NCBI RefSeq assembly: GCF_026167525.1
Contig: NZ_CP110679.1
Coordinates: forward strand, 868,001-932,000
Source: Sphingomonas sp. M1-B02
GTDB taxonomy: Bacteria > Pseudomonadota > Alphaproteobacteria > Sphingomonadales > Sphingomonadaceae
Length of the DNA stretch: 64,000 bases
Reading direction: 5' to 3'
This document shows positions 8,603 to 16,105 of the stretch, piece after piece. The notes beneath the pieces were generated by a model. That model saw nothing but the letters and a program-made list of their open reading frames with translations. It was not told where the DNA came from and did no database searches. Made by a program: the position numbers and the translations under genes. How positions within the stretch are numbered: position 1 is the stretch's first letter; each line of letters opens with the position of its first letter.

Positions 8603-8964
8603 TAGCAACTGCAGGGAGCTTTGCCCAACCGGTACGAAAGAGCGACGGCTTGTATCCGTCGATAACGTATCGCGGGCAGACCGGGCGAATGACCGAGATC
8701 GGGGCAAATCAGCCCTTCCAGGTCGTCATGGTAGCTACAATCAATTGTAAGTGAGGAGCTACAAGGATCCGGTGCTCGGCTCGCGGACTGCGGTCATGTG
8801 GCCCGCAAGCCGGGGCGCGCCAGCGCCGAGCAGGACGCCTGCTTGTGGACAGGCGCGGAACCGCGGGGATGCAGCCTCGTTCGCTTAATTGCGGGGCCAC
8901 AATTCTGGGCGTATCGCGCTTCTCGCGGGAGGGTAAAGTCGCGCCAAAAAGTCCCTACTGCGGC
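8603..8964. other. intergenic region, no gene seen
   Basis: These 362 bases separate the GH2 gene from the oxidase cluster. The only structure I notice is the palindrome ACAATCAATTGT at 8737-8748, flanked by GTAGCT (8731) and AGCTAC (8758), which could be a promoter operator or weak hairpin for the cluster on the right. No tRNA-like fold and no frame with a good start is visible. Confidence 0.4.
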
Positions 8965-9663
8965 ATGGCTCCAGATCCCACGGAGCTTCTCTCCCGCTGG
9001 AATCTGGATCCCTGGCTGCTGGCGGCGCTTGCCGCGGTCGTACTGCTGCTTGCGGTCCTGATACGGCGCGACCAGCGCGCGGTCGCCGCGCTTGCCGTCG
9101 CGCTACTGGTCGTGGCGTTCGTCTCACCTCTGTGTGCGCTCAGCAGTGCGCTATTCTCTGCGCGCACGGTGCATCACGTCCTGCTCGTCGCCTGCGCGGC
9201 ACCACTCTTCGCCCTGCTGGGGCAGCGCGAACGCGCGATCGCTATCGCCCTGCCTTTCGTCGTTTCGACGATTACGCTGTGGTTCTGGCACATCCCGGCT
9301 TTCTACACAGCAGCGCTCGATCATCACGCGCTCTATTGGCTGATGCAGGCCTCGCTCCTCGGCACCGCGATCTGGTTCTGGCGATCGATCTTTTCGGCGC
9401 GTGCGGCGCTTCCCGCGGCGATGGTCGCGCTGGCCGCGGCGGTCGGGCAAATGGGGCTGCTCGGGGCGCTGCTCACCTTCGCGCCATCCCCGCTGTACCC
9501 GCATCACATGATCCCGCCCCTGGCCTACGGGATCGGCCCGCTCCAGGATCAGCAACTTGCCGGGCTGATCATGTGGGTTCCGGCGATGATCCCCTACGGA
9601 TTAATCGCCGCGTTGCTCGCGCGCCGCGCCTGGAGTTCCGGCTGGCTGCGGCAAGCCGCATGA
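8965..9663 (+). CDS. CtaG-like cytochrome c oxidase assembly membrane protein
   Basis: This 232-residue polytopic membrane protein of the caa3_CtaG family has about seven hydrophobic helices. It carries the family's conserved His-rich loops, seen here in TVHHVLL, LWFWHIPAFYTAALDHHALYW and the region around LYPHHMIPP. Members help assemble the copper centres of heme-copper oxidases. The start MAPDPTELLSRWNLDPW was chosen because family proteins begin this way; the ribosome binding site there is weak and the frame is open further upstream. Its stop overlaps the next start (ATGA), so it is translationally coupled to the CopD-family gene and belongs to the oxidase cluster. It is unrelated in sequence to the single-span CtaG/Cox11 family. 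Confidence 0.82.
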   Translation: MAPDPTELLSRWNLDPWLLAALAAVVLLLAVLIRRDQRAVAALAVALLVVAFVSPLCALSSALFSARTVHHVLLVACAAPLFALLGQRERAIAIALPFVVSTITLWFWHIPAFYTAALDHHALYWLMQASLLGTAIWFWRSIFSARAALPAAMVALAAAVGQMGLLGALLTFAPSPLYPHHMIPPLAYGIGPLQDQQLAGLIMWVPAMIPYGLIAALLARRAWSSGWLRQAA

Positions 9664-10160
9664 CCATCGTCATCGCGATCATAAAGGGCGTGCACATCGC
9701 GGCCATCGCGCTTTGGGCCGCAGGCCTTATTGCGCTGCCTTTGCTGCTGTCGGAACACAGGCGTGGACATGGGCAGAGCGAATATCAGCGCGTGCGACGG
9801 TTCACCCATTATGGCTATACCCATCTGCTCACCCCGGCGGCGGTGATCGCAGTGGCCGCGGGGACCGCCCTGCTGTTTCTGCGCGAAATGTTCGTGCCCT
9901 GGATGTTCGCCAAGCTGGTCCTGGTGGGCGCGCTGGTGACGCTGCATGCCTGGATTGGGGGGCTGGTGGTCCGCATGGGCGAACATGCCAACAAGCGCCA
10001 GCCGTCACCGGTCATGCCTCTGTTGTTCCTGGCGATAGCGCTTAGCGCCGGTATCCTTTTCATCGTGCTGGCGAAACCCGATTATGTTGTGCTGTTCCCC
10101 GAATGGATGACCAGCCCCCGCGATCGTCAATTGCCGGTCGAGGAGGTACCGATTTGGTAA
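9660..10160 (+). CDS. CopD-family membrane protein
   Basis: This 166-residue protein has four predicted membrane helices and begins IIKGVHIAAIALWAAGLIALP, the CopD/HemJ-like first helix with its conserved His. A second His-containing segment, RFTHYGYTHLLTPAA, follows. Some family members are copper-handling proteins and HemJ is a protoporphyrinogen oxidase, so a role in copper or heme supply to the neighbouring oxidase is plausible. The start overlaps the ctaG-like stop by four bases. The 3' end overlaps the convergent DUF2231 gene by 34 bases. The precise role is not shown by sequence. Confidence 0.72.
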   Translation: MTIVIAIIKGVHIAAIALWAAGLIALPLLLSEHRRGHGQSEYQRVRRFTHYGYTHLLTPAAVIAVAAGTALLFLREMFVPWMFAKLVLVGALVTLHAWIGGLVVRMGEHANKRQPSPVMPLLFLAIALSAGILFIVLAKPDYVVLFPEWMTSPRDRQLPVEEVPIW

Positions 10161-10639
10161 TCGAACACCAGTTTGCCGCCGTGCCAGCCCGCAAAGCCGA
10201 CAAAGAGCGCGGAGAGCATCGACAGCAACAAACCATATGGAAGTACCGCCGTCTCGTAGCCCGTGAGACGATAGCCCCAGTTGGCGCCGAGGATCGACAG
10301 CAGCGCCATCGCGATGATGAAGTGCGTCCAGCTAGCGGCGCGCGCGCGGATGCCGGGCACGCTGAGCAGTTCGACCGTGCCCGAAAGGCCCGCGAGGAGG
10401 CCCATGAGGAACGCCATGCCGGTGCTCCAAAGCGCCGCGCGCGCCCAGAAGCTGTCGCCCGTCCACCAATAAAAGAGATCTGCTCCCAGCGCGCAGGCGG
10501 TCAGGCCGATGGGAAAGGAAACGAGCATCGCGTGCACCGGATGCCCCGCTACCGCGATCTTCGATTCGGCGCGATTGAACGCGGGCCGGGCGCTGATCGG
10601 ATCGGTAAGCTCGTTTTCACGCTGCTCGGTATTTGGCAT
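10127..10639 (-). CDS. DUF2231 membrane protein (first of two)
   Basis: This 170-residue protein has four membrane helices and the DUF2231 hallmark GHPVHAMLVSFPIGL (about residues 32-46). A further conserved His lies in WTHFIIAM of the third helix. The paired His residues in membrane helices resemble heme ligation in small b-type cytochromes, but no function is established that I can name. It is the only gene of the oxidase cluster on the minus strand, wedged between the CopD-family gene (overlapping its 3' end) and coxB. A homologue lies at 15413-15844, also on the minus strand. The recurrence beside an oxidase suggests an electron-transfer or assembly link. Confidence 0.78.
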   Translation of the reverse strand: MPNTEQRENELTDPISARPAFNRAESKIAVAGHPVHAMLVSFPIGLTACALGADLFYWWTGDSFWARAALWSTGMAFLMGLLAGLSGTVELLSVPGIRARAASWTHFIIAMALLSILGANWGYRLTGYETAVLPYGLLLSMLSALFVGFAGWHGGKLVFDYQIGTSSTGN

Positions 10640-11329
10640 CGCCGTACCCCTCGAAATCGAACCGTAGCCTGTCTAACGCCCGGTGCGACGTTTCTTTCAA
10701 CGGCCTGTTCCGGAGACTATTCGACGCTCGCCCCCGCGGGGCCGGCGGCGGGGGCAATCGCGCCCTTATGGTGGGTGATGCTGGCAGGCGCGGCAGCTAT
10801 CTTGCTCCTGGTCTGTGCACTGCTGGCGCTGGCATTCCGCCGCCGCCACAGCGACGGAGCGTCGGTGCGTATCTGGATCATCGGCGGCGGCATCTTATTC
10901 CCCGCCCTGGTGCTTGTCGCCCTGCTCGGCTTCGGCCTCGTCGTGGGAGAAAGACTGTTACCGCGCGAGGATCCGCGAACCCTTCGCGTCGTTGCCGAGG
11001 CGCGCCAATGGGAGTGGAGCTTCACCCAGCCGGGAACCGCGGGTGCAATCCGCACGCGAAATGTGCTGCACATTCCCGCCAATCGACCAATAGATGTCGA
11101 GCTTGCCACGCTCGATGTGATCCACGCCTTCTGGGTGCCGAGGCTCGCCGGGAAGATGGACGCAATACCCGGTCGCCGCAATGTGCTGCGCATCGAGGCG
11201 AGCCAGCCGGGCGTCTATTATGGGCTGTGCGCCGAGTTTTGCGGAGTCGGCCATTCGCAACACGGCTATCGTGTGGTCGCGCATGACGCCGCCGGCTGGG
11301 CGCGCTTCCAGGCAGGCGAAACACAGTGA
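10622..11329 (+). CDS. coxB: cytochrome c oxidase subunit II, start uncertain
   Basis: This subunit II is a lipoprotein: FLSTAC places the lipobox Cys at 10706-10708. Two membrane helices (about 10763-10840 and 10866-10955) lead to a periplasmic cupredoxin domain. The CuA loop reads CAEFCGVGHSQH: both Cys, the Glu and the His are present, as is the upstream His in DVIHAFWVP. The usual Met ligand position, three residues after the loop His, is His (codon 11261-11263). No ATG, GTG or TTG occurs in frame between the divergent DUF2231 start and the lipobox. I give the CTG at 10622, which would make a 235-residue precursor. The stop overlaps the GTG start of the next gene. The identity of the subunit is secure; the first codon is not. 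Confidence 0.85.
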   Translation: MLGIWHRRTPRNRTVACLTPGATFLSTACSGDYSTLAPAGPAAGAIAPLWWVMLAGAAAILLLVCALLALAFRRRHSDGASVRIWIIGGGILFPALVLVALLGFGLVVGERLLPREDPRTLRVVAEARQWEWSFTQPGTAGAIRTRNVLHIPANRPIDVELATLDVIHAFWVPRLAGKMDAIPGRRNVLRIEASQPGVYYGLCAEFCGVGHSQHGYRVVAHDAAGWARFQAGETQ

Positions 11330-13779
11330 AGGCACTTCAGCTCCACCGCGCGTTCGAGGCGATCTGGGGAACCCCGCCCGGCTGGCGGGGCACCTTCTCG
11401 AGCGTCAATCACAGCACGATGGGCATCCGGCTGATGCTGACGGCCTTCATCTTCTTTCTGATCGGTGGCGTGCTGGCGATGCTGATCCGGGCGCAGCTAG
11501 CGACGCCAGGCAGCGCCTTTGCCGGGCCCGAAATCTACAACCAGCTTTTCACGATGCACGGCAGCATCATGATGTTCCTGTTCGCGATCCCGATGTTCGA
11601 AGGATTTGCGATCTATATGCTGCCCAAGATGCTGGGCGCGCGCGACCTCGCCTTCCCGCGCCTCACGGCGTACGGTTGGTGGTGCTATCTGTTCGGCGGG
11701 TCGATGCTAATCGTGGCGATGTTGCTCGGCATCGCGCCCGATAGCGGCTGGTTCATGTATACGCCGCTGTCGTCGAAGCCCTATTCGCCGGGGATCAATT
11801 CCGATTTCTGGCTGCTCGGCATTACGTTCGTCGAGATCTCTGCGATCATCACCGCGGTTGATATCGTCGTGTCGATCCTGAAGCTTCGCGCCCCTGGCAT
11901 GTCGCTCGACAAGATGCCCTTGTTCGCCTGGTACATGCTGGTGACGGCGATGATGATGCTCATCGGCTTTCCCCCGCTAATCCTCGGCTCGATCCTGCTA
12001 GAGCTAGAACGGGCATTCGGCTGGCCCTTCTTCGACGCCGCGCGCGGCGGGGATCCACTACTCTGGCAGCATCTGTTCTGGCTGTTCGGGCACCCGGAGG
12101 TGTACATCATCTTCCTGCCCGCCGCGGGGGCGGTTTCGACGATATTGCCGGTGATGGCGCGGACCCGGATCCTTGGATACGGCTGGATCGTCGCCGCGAT
12201 CCTGGCACTCGGTTTCCTGAGTTTCGGCCTGTGGGTGCATCACATGTTCACCGTCGGCATCCCGCACATGGCGCTCGCCTTCTTCTCGGCGGCATCGACC
12301 TTGGTCGCAGTTCCGACCGGAGTGCAGATCTTCGCCTGGCTCGGAACGTTGTGGGCGGGACGGCCGCAGATGAAGCTGCCGATGCTGTACCTGATCGGCT
12401 TCTTCGTCACCTTCGTGATGGGCGGTTTGACAGGCGTGATGGTGGCGATGGTCCCGTTCGACTGGCAGGCGCACGACAGCGCCTTCGTCACCGCACATCT
12501 CCATTATGTGTTGTTCGGCGGCTTCGTCTTCCCGATGCTCGCCGCCGCCTATTACTGGCTCGGGCATTTCACCGGCCGGCAATATAGCTACACGCTGGGC
12601 AAGGCGGCGTTCTGGCTGATCTTTATCGGTTTCCACCTCACCTTCCTCTTGATGCATCTGGTCGGGCTGCTCGGCCAGCCGCGCCGGATCTACACCTATC
12701 CGGAAGAGATCGGCTGGACGGCGTATAATCTGCTCTCGTCGATCGGCGGGTTCGTGATGGCGATCGGCATCGCCTTGTTCATCATCGATATCGCGCTGCA
12801 GTTCTTCCACGCGCCGCGAACGCGCCGCAATCCGTGGAGGGCGGGCACCCTAGAATGGACGATGATGCTGCCTCCGCCGTCGTACAATATCGCCAGCCTG
12901 CCGCATGTCGACGATCGGGAGCCGCTCGAAAAGACGCCCGATCTGGCCCTCGCGCTCGCGCGCGGCGAGGGATATCTCGCCGAGCCGCGCAATGGCTGGC
13001 GCGAGACGCTGGCCGTGGAAACGGCGAGCGGGCGTATCGAACATATCGTCGTGCTTCCCGGCAACACGTTCCTGCCGCTTTGGACCGCGCTGGTGACCGG
13101 CAGCTTCTTCGTTCTGATGCTCCTGAAGCTCTATTTCTGGGCGCCGCTGCCGCTCGTCATCCTGGCCGTACTGGGCTGGCGCTGGGGGTGGGTGCTGGGG
13201 GGCAAACGCGCGTATGGAAAGCTTTCCATCGGGCACGGGATCGAAGTCCCGGTCCATGCCGAAGTGCGTCGATCGCTGGGCTGGTGGGGGAGCGTGTTCC
13301 TGCTAAGCGCAAACGGCACCTTATTCGCCTCGCTGCTGTTCGGGCACGCGTTTCTTTGGACCATCGCGCCGAACTGGCCGCCGCCGGCACTGGTGACGCC
13401 GTCTATCCCGATAGTGGTCGCGGGGATTCTAGGCGCCGCTATCGCCGCGCTGTTCGCGCGCCCGACGCGCGGCACCGGCATCGCCGGTATCGGCCTGGCG
13501 GTCCTGCTCGCCGCACTAATCGCGACGGCTTGGTTTCTAGCACCGTCCCCTCGAGTGCACGCCTATGGCGCAGTGGTGGCCGTGCTGCTCGGCTATGCCA
13601 CATTGCACCTCACGCTTGCTTTGCTGATCGGCCTATTCGCCGCGTATAGACGGCGCGCGGGCTATGTCGCAGCGACCCGGGGGGCCGAACCGCATATCGC
13701 GCGGCTGTGGGCCGACTATGCGATAGCGGTCGGCGCAATCGCCTTGATCTGCACGCATTTGCCGGGCTTGTCGGCATGA
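11326..13779 (+). CDS. fused cytochrome c oxidase subunit I-III
   Basis: This is an 817-residue heme-copper oxidase catalytic subunit with a subunit III-like C-terminal extension. The metal ligands are complete: His78 and His393 for the low-spin heme, His391 for the active-site heme, and His256, His305 and His306 for CuB, with Tyr260 in GHPEVY. Glu258 of the A1-type motif is present. The D-channel entry Asp107 is kept (ARDLAFPR), but the following canonical MNN is LTA. The K-channel position in VPTGVQ is Gln334 where Lys is usual. After about residue 530 comes a linker, then roughly seven helices with the subunit III-like RSLGWWGSVFL. It starts with GTG overlapping the coxB stop and its own stop overlaps the next ATG, so this is a tight operon. 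Confidence 0.92.
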   Translation: MKALQLHRAFEAIWGTPPGWRGTFSSVNHSTMGIRLMLTAFIFFLIGGVLAMLIRAQLATPGSAFAGPEIYNQLFTMHGSIMMFLFAIPMFEGFAIYMLPKMLGARDLAFPRLTAYGWWCYLFGGSMLIVAMLLGIAPDSGWFMYTPLSSKPYSPGINSDFWLLGITFVEISAIITAVDIVVSILKLRAPGMSLDKMPLFAWYMLVTAMMMLIGFPPLILGSILLELERAFGWPFFDAARGGDPLLWQHLFWLFGHPEVYIIFLPAAGAVSTILPVMARTRILGYGWIVAAILALGFLSFGLWVHHMFTVGIPHMALAFFSAASTLVAVPTGVQIFAWLGTLWAGRPQMKLPMLYLIGFFVTFVMGGLTGVMVAMVPFDWQAHDSAFVTAHLHYVLFGGFVFPMLAAAYYWLGHFTGRQYSYTLGKAAFWLIFIGFHLTFLLMHLVGLLGQPRRIYTYPEEIGWTAYNLLSSIGGFVMAIGIALFIIDIALQFFHAPRTRRNPWRAGTLEWTMMLPPPSYNIASLPHVDDREPLEKTPDLALALARGEGYLAEPRNGWRETLAVETASGRIEHIVVLPGNTFLPLWTALVTGSFFVLMLLKLYFWAPLPLVILAVLGWRWGWVLGGKRAYGKLSIGHGIEVPVHAEVRRSLGWWGSVFLLSANGTLFASLLFGHAFLWTIAPNWPPPALVTPSIPIVVAGILGAAIAALFARPTRGTGIAGIGLAVLLAALIATAWFLAPSPRVHAYGAVVAVLLGYATLHLTLALLIGLFAAYRRRAGYVAATRGAEPHIARLWADYAIAVGAIALICTHLPGLSA

Positions 13780-14111: not shown

Positions 14112-15416
14112 CTATCGTGGGACAGCCGTCGGAGACACCCGCCAGACCGTGTTCGACAAGTCATCGGCGATGTAGAGCGCCTTCTTCTGAGGGTCGAATG
14201 TGACGCCGACAGGCCTGCCGCGTGCCTTGCCATCAACCAGAAAGCCGGTGACAAAGTCTCGCTGGGGGCCGGCAGGCCGACCGCTTGCAAACGGCACGAA
14301 GCTGACCTTGTATCCCGATGGGTCGGGGCGGTTCCAGCTGCCATGCTGGCCGACGAACGCGCCATCGCCATAGCCGGCTTTGAATTGCCCGTTTCGGACG
14401 AAGGTGAGCCCGAGCGCCGCTACATGCGCGCCCAGCGCATAATCGGGCGCGATCGAACGGGCGACCATATCGGGTCGGGCCGGCCGGACGCGCGGATCGA
14501 CATTCTTGCCCCAATATGCCCAGGGCCAGCCATAAAAGGCGCCAGGCTGGACCGAAGTCAGGTAATCGGGGACAAGGTGCGGGCCGATTTCGTCGCGCTC
14601 GTTGGCTACCGCCCAGACACCGTTAGTCCAGGGATTGATCGCCAGCGCAGTGGGATTACGGATGCCGCTGGCATAGGTGCGTCGCGCGCCGGTCGCCCGG
14701 TCGATCTCCCAGATAACCGCGCGCTGTTCCTCGATTTCGAGTCCGCGCTCGCCGACATTGCTGTTCGAGCCGATGCCGACATAGAGTTTGGTGCCGTCCA
14801 GACTAGCAGTGAGCGACTTAGTCCAGTGGTGATTGACCTGCGACGGCAGCTTGGTCACCTCGACCCCCGCCGAACGCGGCACCGCCGTTTGGCCATTGCG
14901 GTAGGGGAAACGCAGCAGCGCATCCTGATTGGCGACATAGATCTGCCCGTCGACGAAGGCGAGACCGTACGGCGCGTCCAGACCGTCTATGAACACGGTG
15001 CGCACCTCCGCGCGACCATCGCCATCGGCGTCGCGCACCAGCGTCAGCCGGTTGCCGCTCTCAACGGTCGTATTGCCGAGCGCCTTGATATAGCCAGCGA
15101 TTACATCCTTCGGGCGGAGCTTCGGGGCGTGGCCGCCGCGCCCCTCCGCGATGAGCAGGTCGCCATTGGGAAGCACCAGCATCTGACGCGGGATACGCAG
15201 ATCGGTCGCGAGCGGGACGATCGTGAACCCTTCGGGAACGGTCGGCAACGCACCCTCCCAGCCCCGTGGCGATGCGACCTTGATCGTGGGAACCAACTGT
15301 TGCTGGACAGCGGGCAATTCAGGATTGGGGCCGGTGTCGCGTACCTCGGTGGCACCCCCGCAGGCGGCCAACGAAAGTGATAGAGCGGCGATGCCGGACT
15401 GGCGCAACGCGGTCAT
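14112..15416 (-). CDS. PQQ-dependent sugar dehydrogenase-like lipoprotein
   Basis: This 434-residue beta-propeller of the glucose/sorbosone dehydrogenase family has a lipoprotein signal (ALSLSLAAC). Conserved blocks include TDLRIPRQMLVLPNGDLLIA, the DADGDGRAEVRTVF calcium-like loop, SQVNHHWTKSLTAS, YASGIRNPTALA and VGQHGSWNRPDPSGY. Members oxidise aldoses or sorbosone in the periplasm and pass electrons to the respiratory chain, although some sequences of the family lack measured activity. The start at 15416 overlaps the stop of the upstream DUF2231 gene (ATGA), so they are one operon. It converges on the oxidase operon with only an 18-base gap. That arrangement suggests its electrons may reach this oxidase. 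Confidence 0.86.
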   Translation of the reverse strand: MTALRQSGIAALSLSLAACGGATEVRDTGPNPELPAVQQQLVPTIKVASPRGWEGALPTVPEGFTIVPLATDLRIPRQMLVLPNGDLLIAEGRGGHAPKLRPKDVIAGYIKALGNTTVESGNRLTLVRDADGDGRAEVRTVFIDGLDAPYGLAFVDGQIYVANQDALLRFPYRNGQTAVPRSAGVEVTKLPSQVNHHWTKSLTASLDGTKLYVGIGSNSNVGERGLEIEEQRAVIWEIDRATGARRTYASGIRNPTALAINPWTNGVWAVANERDEIGPHLVPDYLTSVQPGAFYGWPWAYWGKNVDPRVRPARPDMVARSIAPDYALGAHVAALGLTFVRNGQFKAGYGDGAFVGQHGSWNRPDPSGYKVSFVPFASGRPAGPQRDFVTGFLVDGKARGRPVGVTFDPQKKALYIADDLSNTVWRVSPTAVPR

Positions 15417-15844
15417 ACCCTTGCCCCCGCTGCGAGCCGGGCATGGGCGACCCACCCCGCCGCAAGTGCAAGGGCGCTGCACAGCGCCGAGAGCAGCACG
15501 CCCGTGGTACCCACAGAACTCCACGCATCCTGGCTATGCTTGAAGGCGTTGATCAACCCCAACACCCACATTGCCGTGACCAAGCCGAGATATAGGCTGA
15601 GCGGACGGCGCGTCGAGGAGCGATCACTGCGGATTCGCATCAGGATCGCCCAGACCACGACCGGCGCGCCAAAGATCAGTGCACCCGTGATCGCCCACTG
15701 CGAAAGGTTGGACCATTGGATCTCGCTGCTGTTCAAATATGTGATGTCCGACGCAAATGCCGAAGGGAACAGTGCAATCGGAAATGCCAGCAAGATGGCA
15801 TGAATAGGGTGCAAGTGCGGACCAACCGCCGGCGCAGATGACAT
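15413..15844 (-). CDS. DUF2231 membrane protein (second of two)
   Basis: This 143-residue protein has four helices and the DUF2231 signature HPIHAILLAFPIALFPSAF near its N-terminus, matching the HPVHAMLVSFPIGL of the protein at 10127-10639. The start at 15844 has GGAGAGCCCG just upstream; the longer open frame has no better start. Its stop overlaps the sugar dehydrogenase start, making a two-gene operon. Two members of an uncharacterised membrane family bracketing an oxidase and a quinoprotein dehydrogenase suggest a shared respiratory role. Confidence 0.77.
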   Translation of the reverse strand: MSSAPAVGPHLHPIHAILLAFPIALFPSAFASDITYLNSSEIQWSNLSQWAITGALIFGAPVVVWAILMRIRSDRSSTRRPLSLYLGLVTAMWVLGLINAFKHSQDAWSSVGTTGVLLSALCSALALAAGWVAHARLAAGARV

Positions 15845-16105
15845 CGGGCTCTCCGTTCGCCCGCCCGGAAAGGACCGACCTCGATAATGGGATAATGAGC
15901 AAGAGCAGGGATGGTTGCACCCCCGCGGGTCGGAACCGACGCAAGGCACGGCTCCGGTCAAGGCGATCGCCGCCAGTTCGAGCGGATTCCCGCGAAGCAA
16001 CCTGCACGTCGATCCGGATTTCGTGGAAAGCTGTGGGCGGACCACCCCACTGTTACGGCAAACCGTTGCCAGGCCGACAGTTTAGATACGCAGAGCGCCG
16101 ATAAG

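Follow-up and report, generated by a model that had tools for sequence, protein, structure and literature searches.

A fused heme-copper oxidase of Sphingomonas without the K-channel Lys and the Asn gate: a possible single acid-lined proton channel

Introduction

How does a heme-copper oxidase move protons when landmark residues of both its proton channels have been replaced? The question is raised by a gene for a fused oxidase subunit in Sphingomonas sp. M1-B02, which lies within a stretch of 64,000 nucleotides (contig NZ_CP110679.1, positions 868,001 to 932,000) that we call the window. Bacterial enzymes take in both chemical and pumped protons along the D path, and use the K path in the reductive phase (PMC10194837; papers are cited by PMC identifier and for the available parts of their text). 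The need for the K channel in the reductive half-cycle and the one-way role of the Asn gate have been deduced mainly from point mutants in a small number of enzymes. The clade described here, in which such changes are fixed and under selection, is their natural counterpart and offers a natural test of proton movement in heme-copper oxidases. The outcome matters either way: pumping would prove possible without the K channel and the Asn gate, or cells would be seen to retain deliberately a heme-copper oxidase that does not pump. Our overall picture is tentative, and we put it somewhat below an even chance: the clade would have swapped a two-channel system for a single acid-lined channel without the Asn gate, with no pumping or with another gate, while electron entry changes stepwise.

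Results

A fused oxidase with an intact catalytic site

The gene and the conserved residues that define it are as follows (residue numbers of the Rhodobacter enzyme are marked Rs).

11326..13779, + strand: fused heme-copper oxidase subunit I+III, 817 residues (profile matches, alignment, fold)
11644..11646, + strand: Asp107 (Rs D132), kept (alignment; 92/92 fused rows)
12097..12099, + strand: Glu258 (Rs E286), kept (alignment; 92/92 fused rows)
12103..12105, + strand: Tyr260 (Rs Y288), kept (alignment; 92/92 fused rows)

Two sets of sequences were compared. The closest set (n = 121) holds the window protein, its identical entry in the database (P0002) and 119 further best matches listed, out of 8000 candidates that passed the E-value limit. 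The wider set contains 92 fused rows, namely the window, 80 named loci, ten further loci and one plasmid, along with groups of nine and eight rows, the odd rows L105-L107, ten Lys-bearing rows and Rhodobacter. Copies of the window gene (L002, L084) and fragments or split frames (L041_2, L108, L108_2, L112) were excluded from this wider set before its counts and trees were made.

The open reading frame, whose coordinates and strand were verified, has a GTG start. Its product scores 713.8 bits against the TIGR02891 profile (CtaD/CoxA cytochrome c oxidase subunit I; curated cut-off 670.75) and falls below the cut-offs of the QoxB and CyoB profiles. A sequence-only reading of this DNA had held that the metal ligands, Tyr260 and Glu258 are intact, and mapping on Rhodobacter 1m56_A confirmed this; the six His ligands are present, and all are kept in 92/92 fused rows. 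Comparison with three relatives gives ratios of nonsynonymous to synonymous substitution rates (dN/dS) of 0.12, 0.20 and 0.22. On these comparisons, the gene is under purifying selection and the predicted catalytic site is intact.

The fusion noted in the sequence-only reading is borne out by the fold. Residues 17..813 of the predicted model align with the I+III chain of Thermus thermophilus caa3 (2yev_A) over 737 residues, the subunit III part included, at 30% identity. The modelled product is a COX1-3 fusion with a subunit III fold behind subunit I. Sequence searches with the C-terminal part alone returned no subunit III, with no Pfam match and PDB matches only at E 0.24 or worse. In the model, the predicted local distance difference test score (pLDDT) is <50 at residues 140-152, 300-302, 304-323, 379-385 and 454-459. 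The subunit III motif (residues 654-686, window 13285-13383) reads LLSANGTLF, where a conserved Glu would normally stand.

The K-channel Lys was lost once in the rows sampled

12325..12327, + strand: Gln334 (Rs K362), codon CAG (alignment; Gln in 121/121 closest sequences and 92/92 fused rows)
12001..12003, + strand: Glu226 (Rs L254), derived acid, possible K-side substitute (Glu in 92/92 fused rows)

The K-channel Lys is indeed replaced by Gln334, as first proposed, according to both the mapping on 1m56_A and the codon. A sequencing error at this codon or a lone mutant is ruled out by Gln in all 121 close sequences; because these are the closest matches, they establish fixation for the near family only. 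At the entrance of the K channel stands Glu101 of Rs subunit II (PMC10341450). In this column, where the subunit II alignment is loose, an acid is found in 0/80 named loci (one being a gap) and Glu in 5/6 Lys-bearing rows, bo3 being the exception. The alignments show both the K-channel Lys of subunit I and the entrance acid of subunit II to be lost.

A tree was built from 65 rows, hand-picked from the aligned set, with the trait columns removed. The 51 Lys-less rows fall on one side of a branch with support of 100/99, found in 100% of 200 bootstrap trees; the state changes once. The same branch has 100/100 in a tree of 59 rows (48 without Lys) and 99 in a quick tree of 122 rows (112 without Lys). 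On these trees, the Lys is lost once in the rows sampled. The comparison rows from outside Pseudomonadota number five (two actinobacteria, one haloarchaeon, one Deinococcus and one cyanobacterium). With these five alone, three of them on long branches, it is uncertain which group is the true sister of the clade. The clade was sampled within Pseudomonadota, save L018 (Bacillus sp. 2B10), which the quick tree places inside Sphingomonas with very short branch lengths and which is probably a contaminated assembly.

The neck of the D channel is rebuilt with acids

11599..11601, + strand: Glu92 (Rs G117), derived acid (Glu in 92/92 fused rows)
11611..11613, + strand: Ile96 (Rs N121) (Ile, Val, Met or Leu in 92/92 fused rows)
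11665..11667, + strand: Thr114 (Rs N139), codon ACG (Thr 48, Ser 36, Gly 8 of 92 fused rows)
11833..11835, + strand: Glu170 (Rs G198), derived acid (Glu in 92/92 fused rows; one change on the tree)
11860..11862, + strand: Asp179 (Rs N207), codon GAT (Glu 88, Asp 4 of 92 fused rows)

The alignment shows all three Asn of the D-channel neck to be replaced, one of them by a conserved acid. At position 114, the 121 closest sequences have Ser in 99 and Thr in 22. Thr-Ala in place of the Asn pair, another claim of the sequence-only reading, stands in its first half: Thr114 (N139) is a real change. Ala115 (N140) is uninformative because N140 is Ala or Met in 3/10 Lys-bearing rows and Ala in the aligned actinobacterial chains; we dropped it as a channel departure since the Lys-bearing comparison rows also vary there. 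That account was also incomplete on the aligned sequences, where changes are present at N121 and N207 and at Y33 (Leu36), S142 (Gly117) and S201 (Ala173).

Within residues 20-540, we looked for positions where a charged or amide side chain is near-invariant among the fused rows but seldom occurs in Lys-bearing ones. This gave twelve sites, including Glu92, Glu170, Asp/Glu179, Glu226, Glu228 (Rs D256), Arg106 and Gln334. Glu92 precedes the N121 position by four residues, and positions 197 and 200 lie on either side of Glu170. N121, S197 and S200 are among the listed D-channel residues, and N121 and N139 form the Asn gate (PMC10341450). We infer from these positions that the new side chains of Glu92 and Glu170 probably face the D channel. 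Both are also found in 9/9 rows of the next fused group. On the 65-row tree, Glu170 changes once, the N207 position three times and the Glu92 position ten times.

The replacements also bear on class. Against the type A1 fingerprint (PMC3084760), the six His and the helix-VI Tyr are present, and the D-channel Asp and Glu (Paracoccus numbering, Pd, D124 and E278) are Asp107 and Glu258. Pd N113, N131, N199, Y35, S134 and S193, which we ourselves paired with Rs N121, N139, N207, Y33, S142 and S201, are Ile96, Thr114, Asp179, Leu36, Gly117 and Ala173, so that 2/8 D-channel residues are kept. In the K channel 3/4 are kept: Thr351, Ser291 and Tyr280 are retained as Thr331, Ser271 and Tyr260, and Lys354 is Gln334. 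By sequence and tree the oxidase is a family-A relative, yet it departs from the A1 fingerprint.

A possible stepwise change of electron entry

10640..11329, + strand: oxidase subunit II, start codon not fixed (TIGR02866, 151.2 bits; cut-off 147.7)
11228..11263, + strand: CuA motif of subunit II, last ligand (11261-11263) His, not Met (alignment)

The CuA consensus of subunit II is HX34CXEXCX3HX2M (PMC9145763). The window reads His, Cys, Glu, Cys, His, His, a departure from the full motif in the axial Met only. Its retained Cys, Glu, Cys and His set it apart from CuA-less quinol oxidases of the bo3 and aa3-600 type. Of the 80 named loci, 43 have lost CuA; the others have it complete, the last ligand being Met in 17, His in 19 and Asn in one. 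These 43 and L085 make up exactly one clade of 44 rows (122-row tree, SH-aLRT 100). The CuA-less clade, the window's subclade and L009 form one group with support of 88/95 in the 59-row tree and 100/98 in the 65-row tree, both thinned sets with seven CuA-less rows. We read this as a stepwise alteration of electron entry, in which the CuA Met would have become His near the window's lineage and CuA would then have been lost totally, once, next door (44/44 rows). The graded change in the neighboring clade is a natural series for shifts in electron entry.

In the CuA-less loci (L012, L014-L016, L020-L028, L030-L034 and others; 43/80), the Cys pair and the second His are replaced. Their commonest pattern is H,S,E,S,Y,F (17/43), in which the first His and the Glu are retained, unlike in bo3.

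A bo3-like quinol oxidase was rejected as a reading of the window enzyme and of the CuA-less clade, judging by R71, D75, H98 and Q101, which we take to be the quinol-site residues of bo3; other quinol sites are conceivable. Arg and Asp occur at the R71 and D75 positions in 0/44 CuA-less rows, nor are they in the window. The H98 position is His in 8/44 of these rows and Ile in the window. The Q101 position is uninformative, since Gln occupies it in all 92 fused rows.

Discussion

Proton uptake and pumping

We favor, at roughly even probability, the view that this extra family-A oxidase reduces oxygen with chemical protons that come solely by way of an acid-lined D channel, and with little or no pumping. 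The clade would have lost the K pathway in a single event, with the D pathway remodelled afterwards, and the chemical protons of the O2 cycle would all reach Glu258 through the acid-lined channel. With pumping low or absent, energy would be conserved mainly by vectorial chemistry, which alone gives about 1 charge per electron rather than 2. Low or absent pumping is suggested because single changes of such a kind uncouple bacterial enzymes. In bovine numbering, Lys319Met abolishes the reductive phase, and N98T and N98S, at the position of N139, are termed decoupled mutants (PMC10194837). In Rhodobacter, N139D and N207D uncouple pumping, and the activity of N139D is slightly raised (PMC6934443). 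The statements of the sequence-only reading on Rhodobacter, that substitution of the Lys blocks activity and of the Asn uncouples, hold according to these two papers.

Several points weigh against this view. R481, R482 and W172 are invariant in 92/92 fused rows and D407 is kept in 79/92, with Asn in 13. These residues presumably lie near the heme propionates, and a pump-free enzyme might be expected to lose them; the invariance of Arg481 and Arg482 across the alignment argues for some pumping. The new acids, conserved as a set, could form a working gate in a re-coupled pump; in Rs N139D, coupling is reported to return with a further change at D132. The Asn at N139 is kept in the Rhizobium/Burkholderia group (8/8) and in L105-L107 (3/3). 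Thus, the gate change is not always coupled with the loss of the Lys in the aligned rows, and its absence from these 11/11 related Gln, Ala or Thr rows makes it younger than, or separate from, that loss. Canonical polar invariants are lost at 5/10 channel sites and 6/35 others (Fisher p = 0.048), a weak excess in a site list of our own choosing. In the mammalian enzyme, pumping survives the equivalent mutations (PMC6934443). In the literature seen, we found no characterized member of the clade and no measured H+/e-.

In the strongest alternative, pumping would be at, or close to, full stoichiometry, with a new gate made up of the acids at 92, 170 and 179 in place of the three Asn, and the rebuilt D channel would carry chemical and pumped protons. 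Fixation of Glu92 and Glu170 in both fused groups (92/92 and 9/9), the single change of Glu170, the invariant R481, R482 and W172 and the pumping of such mammalian mutants (PMC6934443) all fit. However, the Asn gate is wholly gone, and N207D or substitutions of N139 alone uncouple bacterial enzymes (PMC6934443, PMC10194837). We regard full pumping as unlikely, though a serious contender.

A K-type route without the Lys is less probable again, and we consider it doubtful. Protons would enter from the cytoplasmic side at Glu226/Glu228, a position (226) that we take to be near the K-channel mouth, and pass through water to Gln334, Thr331, Ser271 and Tyr260. Glu226 is fixed in the fused rows and in 9/9 rows of the next fused group, and T359 (Thr331) and S299 (Ser271), both present in the window, are each kept in 91/92. 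Family-A oxidases without a canonical K channel have been reported (PMC8239418). However, Gln lacks the proton-carrying role of Lys, the entrance column of subunit II has no acid, and S365 is Ala in 81/92 fused rows. In addition, the Glu226 position is Ile in 8/8 Rhizobium/Burkholderia rows, though these also have Gln at the Lys site.

An abnormal oxidase, be it a decaying copy or one with another substrate, such as nitric oxide (NO), or another electron donor, is very improbable: the axial His in CuA and the loss of CuA ligands in 43/80 named relatives would fit, but dN/dS is 0.12-0.22, the window's other CuA ligands are intact, and the cross-linked Tyr whose absence marks NO reductases (PMC3084760) is present as Tyr260 and kept in 92/92.

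Relation to known oxidases

COX1-3 fusions have been assigned to 'COX operon type a', which was subsequently called A1 subtype a (PMC4013037, PMC6431628). Fused COX proteins occur in some Sphingomonadales (PMC4013037), and proteobacterial COX1-3 proteins are on long branches (PMC4013037 / PMC6431628). The window, alphaproteobacterial and with fused I+III beside subunit II, resembles this type; the placement is by architecture and by the names of its relatives. Unlike here, changes in the K-channel Lys, the Asn gate and CuA go unmentioned in the available parts of those accounts (PMC4013037, PMC6431628). We did not find the channel pattern described in the open-licence literature, and such an absence proves little. 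The COX1-3 family itself is already known.

The fold is common to the window protein and Thermus caa3. In Thermus, subunit II bears a cytochrome c domain; the window subunit II, without a CXXCH, differs. With the aa3 oxidases of Rhodobacter and Paracoccus (1m56, 1ar1), the window protein shares the six His, D132, E286, Y288, S299 and T359, and it differs at K362, N121, N139, N207, Y33, S142 and S201. It naturally has the Thr at N139 and the Asp at N207 that resemble engineered uncoupled mutants (Rs N139D, N207D; N139T/S). Beyond these it adds the loss of N121, two extra Glu, the absence of the K-channel Lys and conservation across a clade.

The caaA fusion of Burkholderia cenocepacia (PMC11742914) may be a relative. 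This species was not among the best 40 of 524 plasmid records from a plasmid search. A link to coxMNOP oxidases found no support: KF707 encodes the coxMNOP subunits in separate genes, and its subunit II carries two haems (PMC5492768).

Distribution

Among 299 genomes of the window's phylum, at least 25 have a gene reading Gln, Ala or Thr at the K site; no more than three candidates were scored in each genome, so that the true number may be higher. One more has a fragment (L112) ending before this site. In addition to this gene, all 26 have two or more PF00115 genes above the cut-off; NO reductases belong to that family too. The two others in the window's genome (L001, L003) both carry the Lys.

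Some relatives depart in other ways. L105-L107, two of them in the window's genus, have a subunit I that reads GHPWVY, with Trp for Glu286 and Ala or Thr for the K-channel Lys; D132, N121, N139 and N207 are retained. In nine loci of Rhizobium, Mesorhizobium and Burkholderia relatives (L100-L104, L118, L119, L125, L130), both channel landmarks are gone: D132 is Asn, Ser or His, K362 is Gln, and N207 is Glu in 7/9. L119 and L125 have subunit III annotated as a gene of its own. In L108 (G050), the subunit I gene is split across two frames.

Gene neighborhood

8845..9663, + strand: Caa3_CtaG-type assembly protein (PF09678; match in 72/80 named loci)
9660..10160, + strand: HemJ/UPF0093-like membrane protein (PF03653; match in 78/80 named loci)
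10127..10639, - strand: DUF2231 membrane protein, opposite strand (PF09990; match in 79/80 named loci)
14112..16045, - strand: sorbosone-dehydrogenase-like gene, near the oxidase in the window

The sorbosone-dehydrogenase-like gene might be linked to the electron donor. Such a gene is found near oxidases of this kind in 4/80 named loci (L014, L037, L051, L052), with DUF2231 in three, and also on two plasmids (L115, L116), again with DUF2231.

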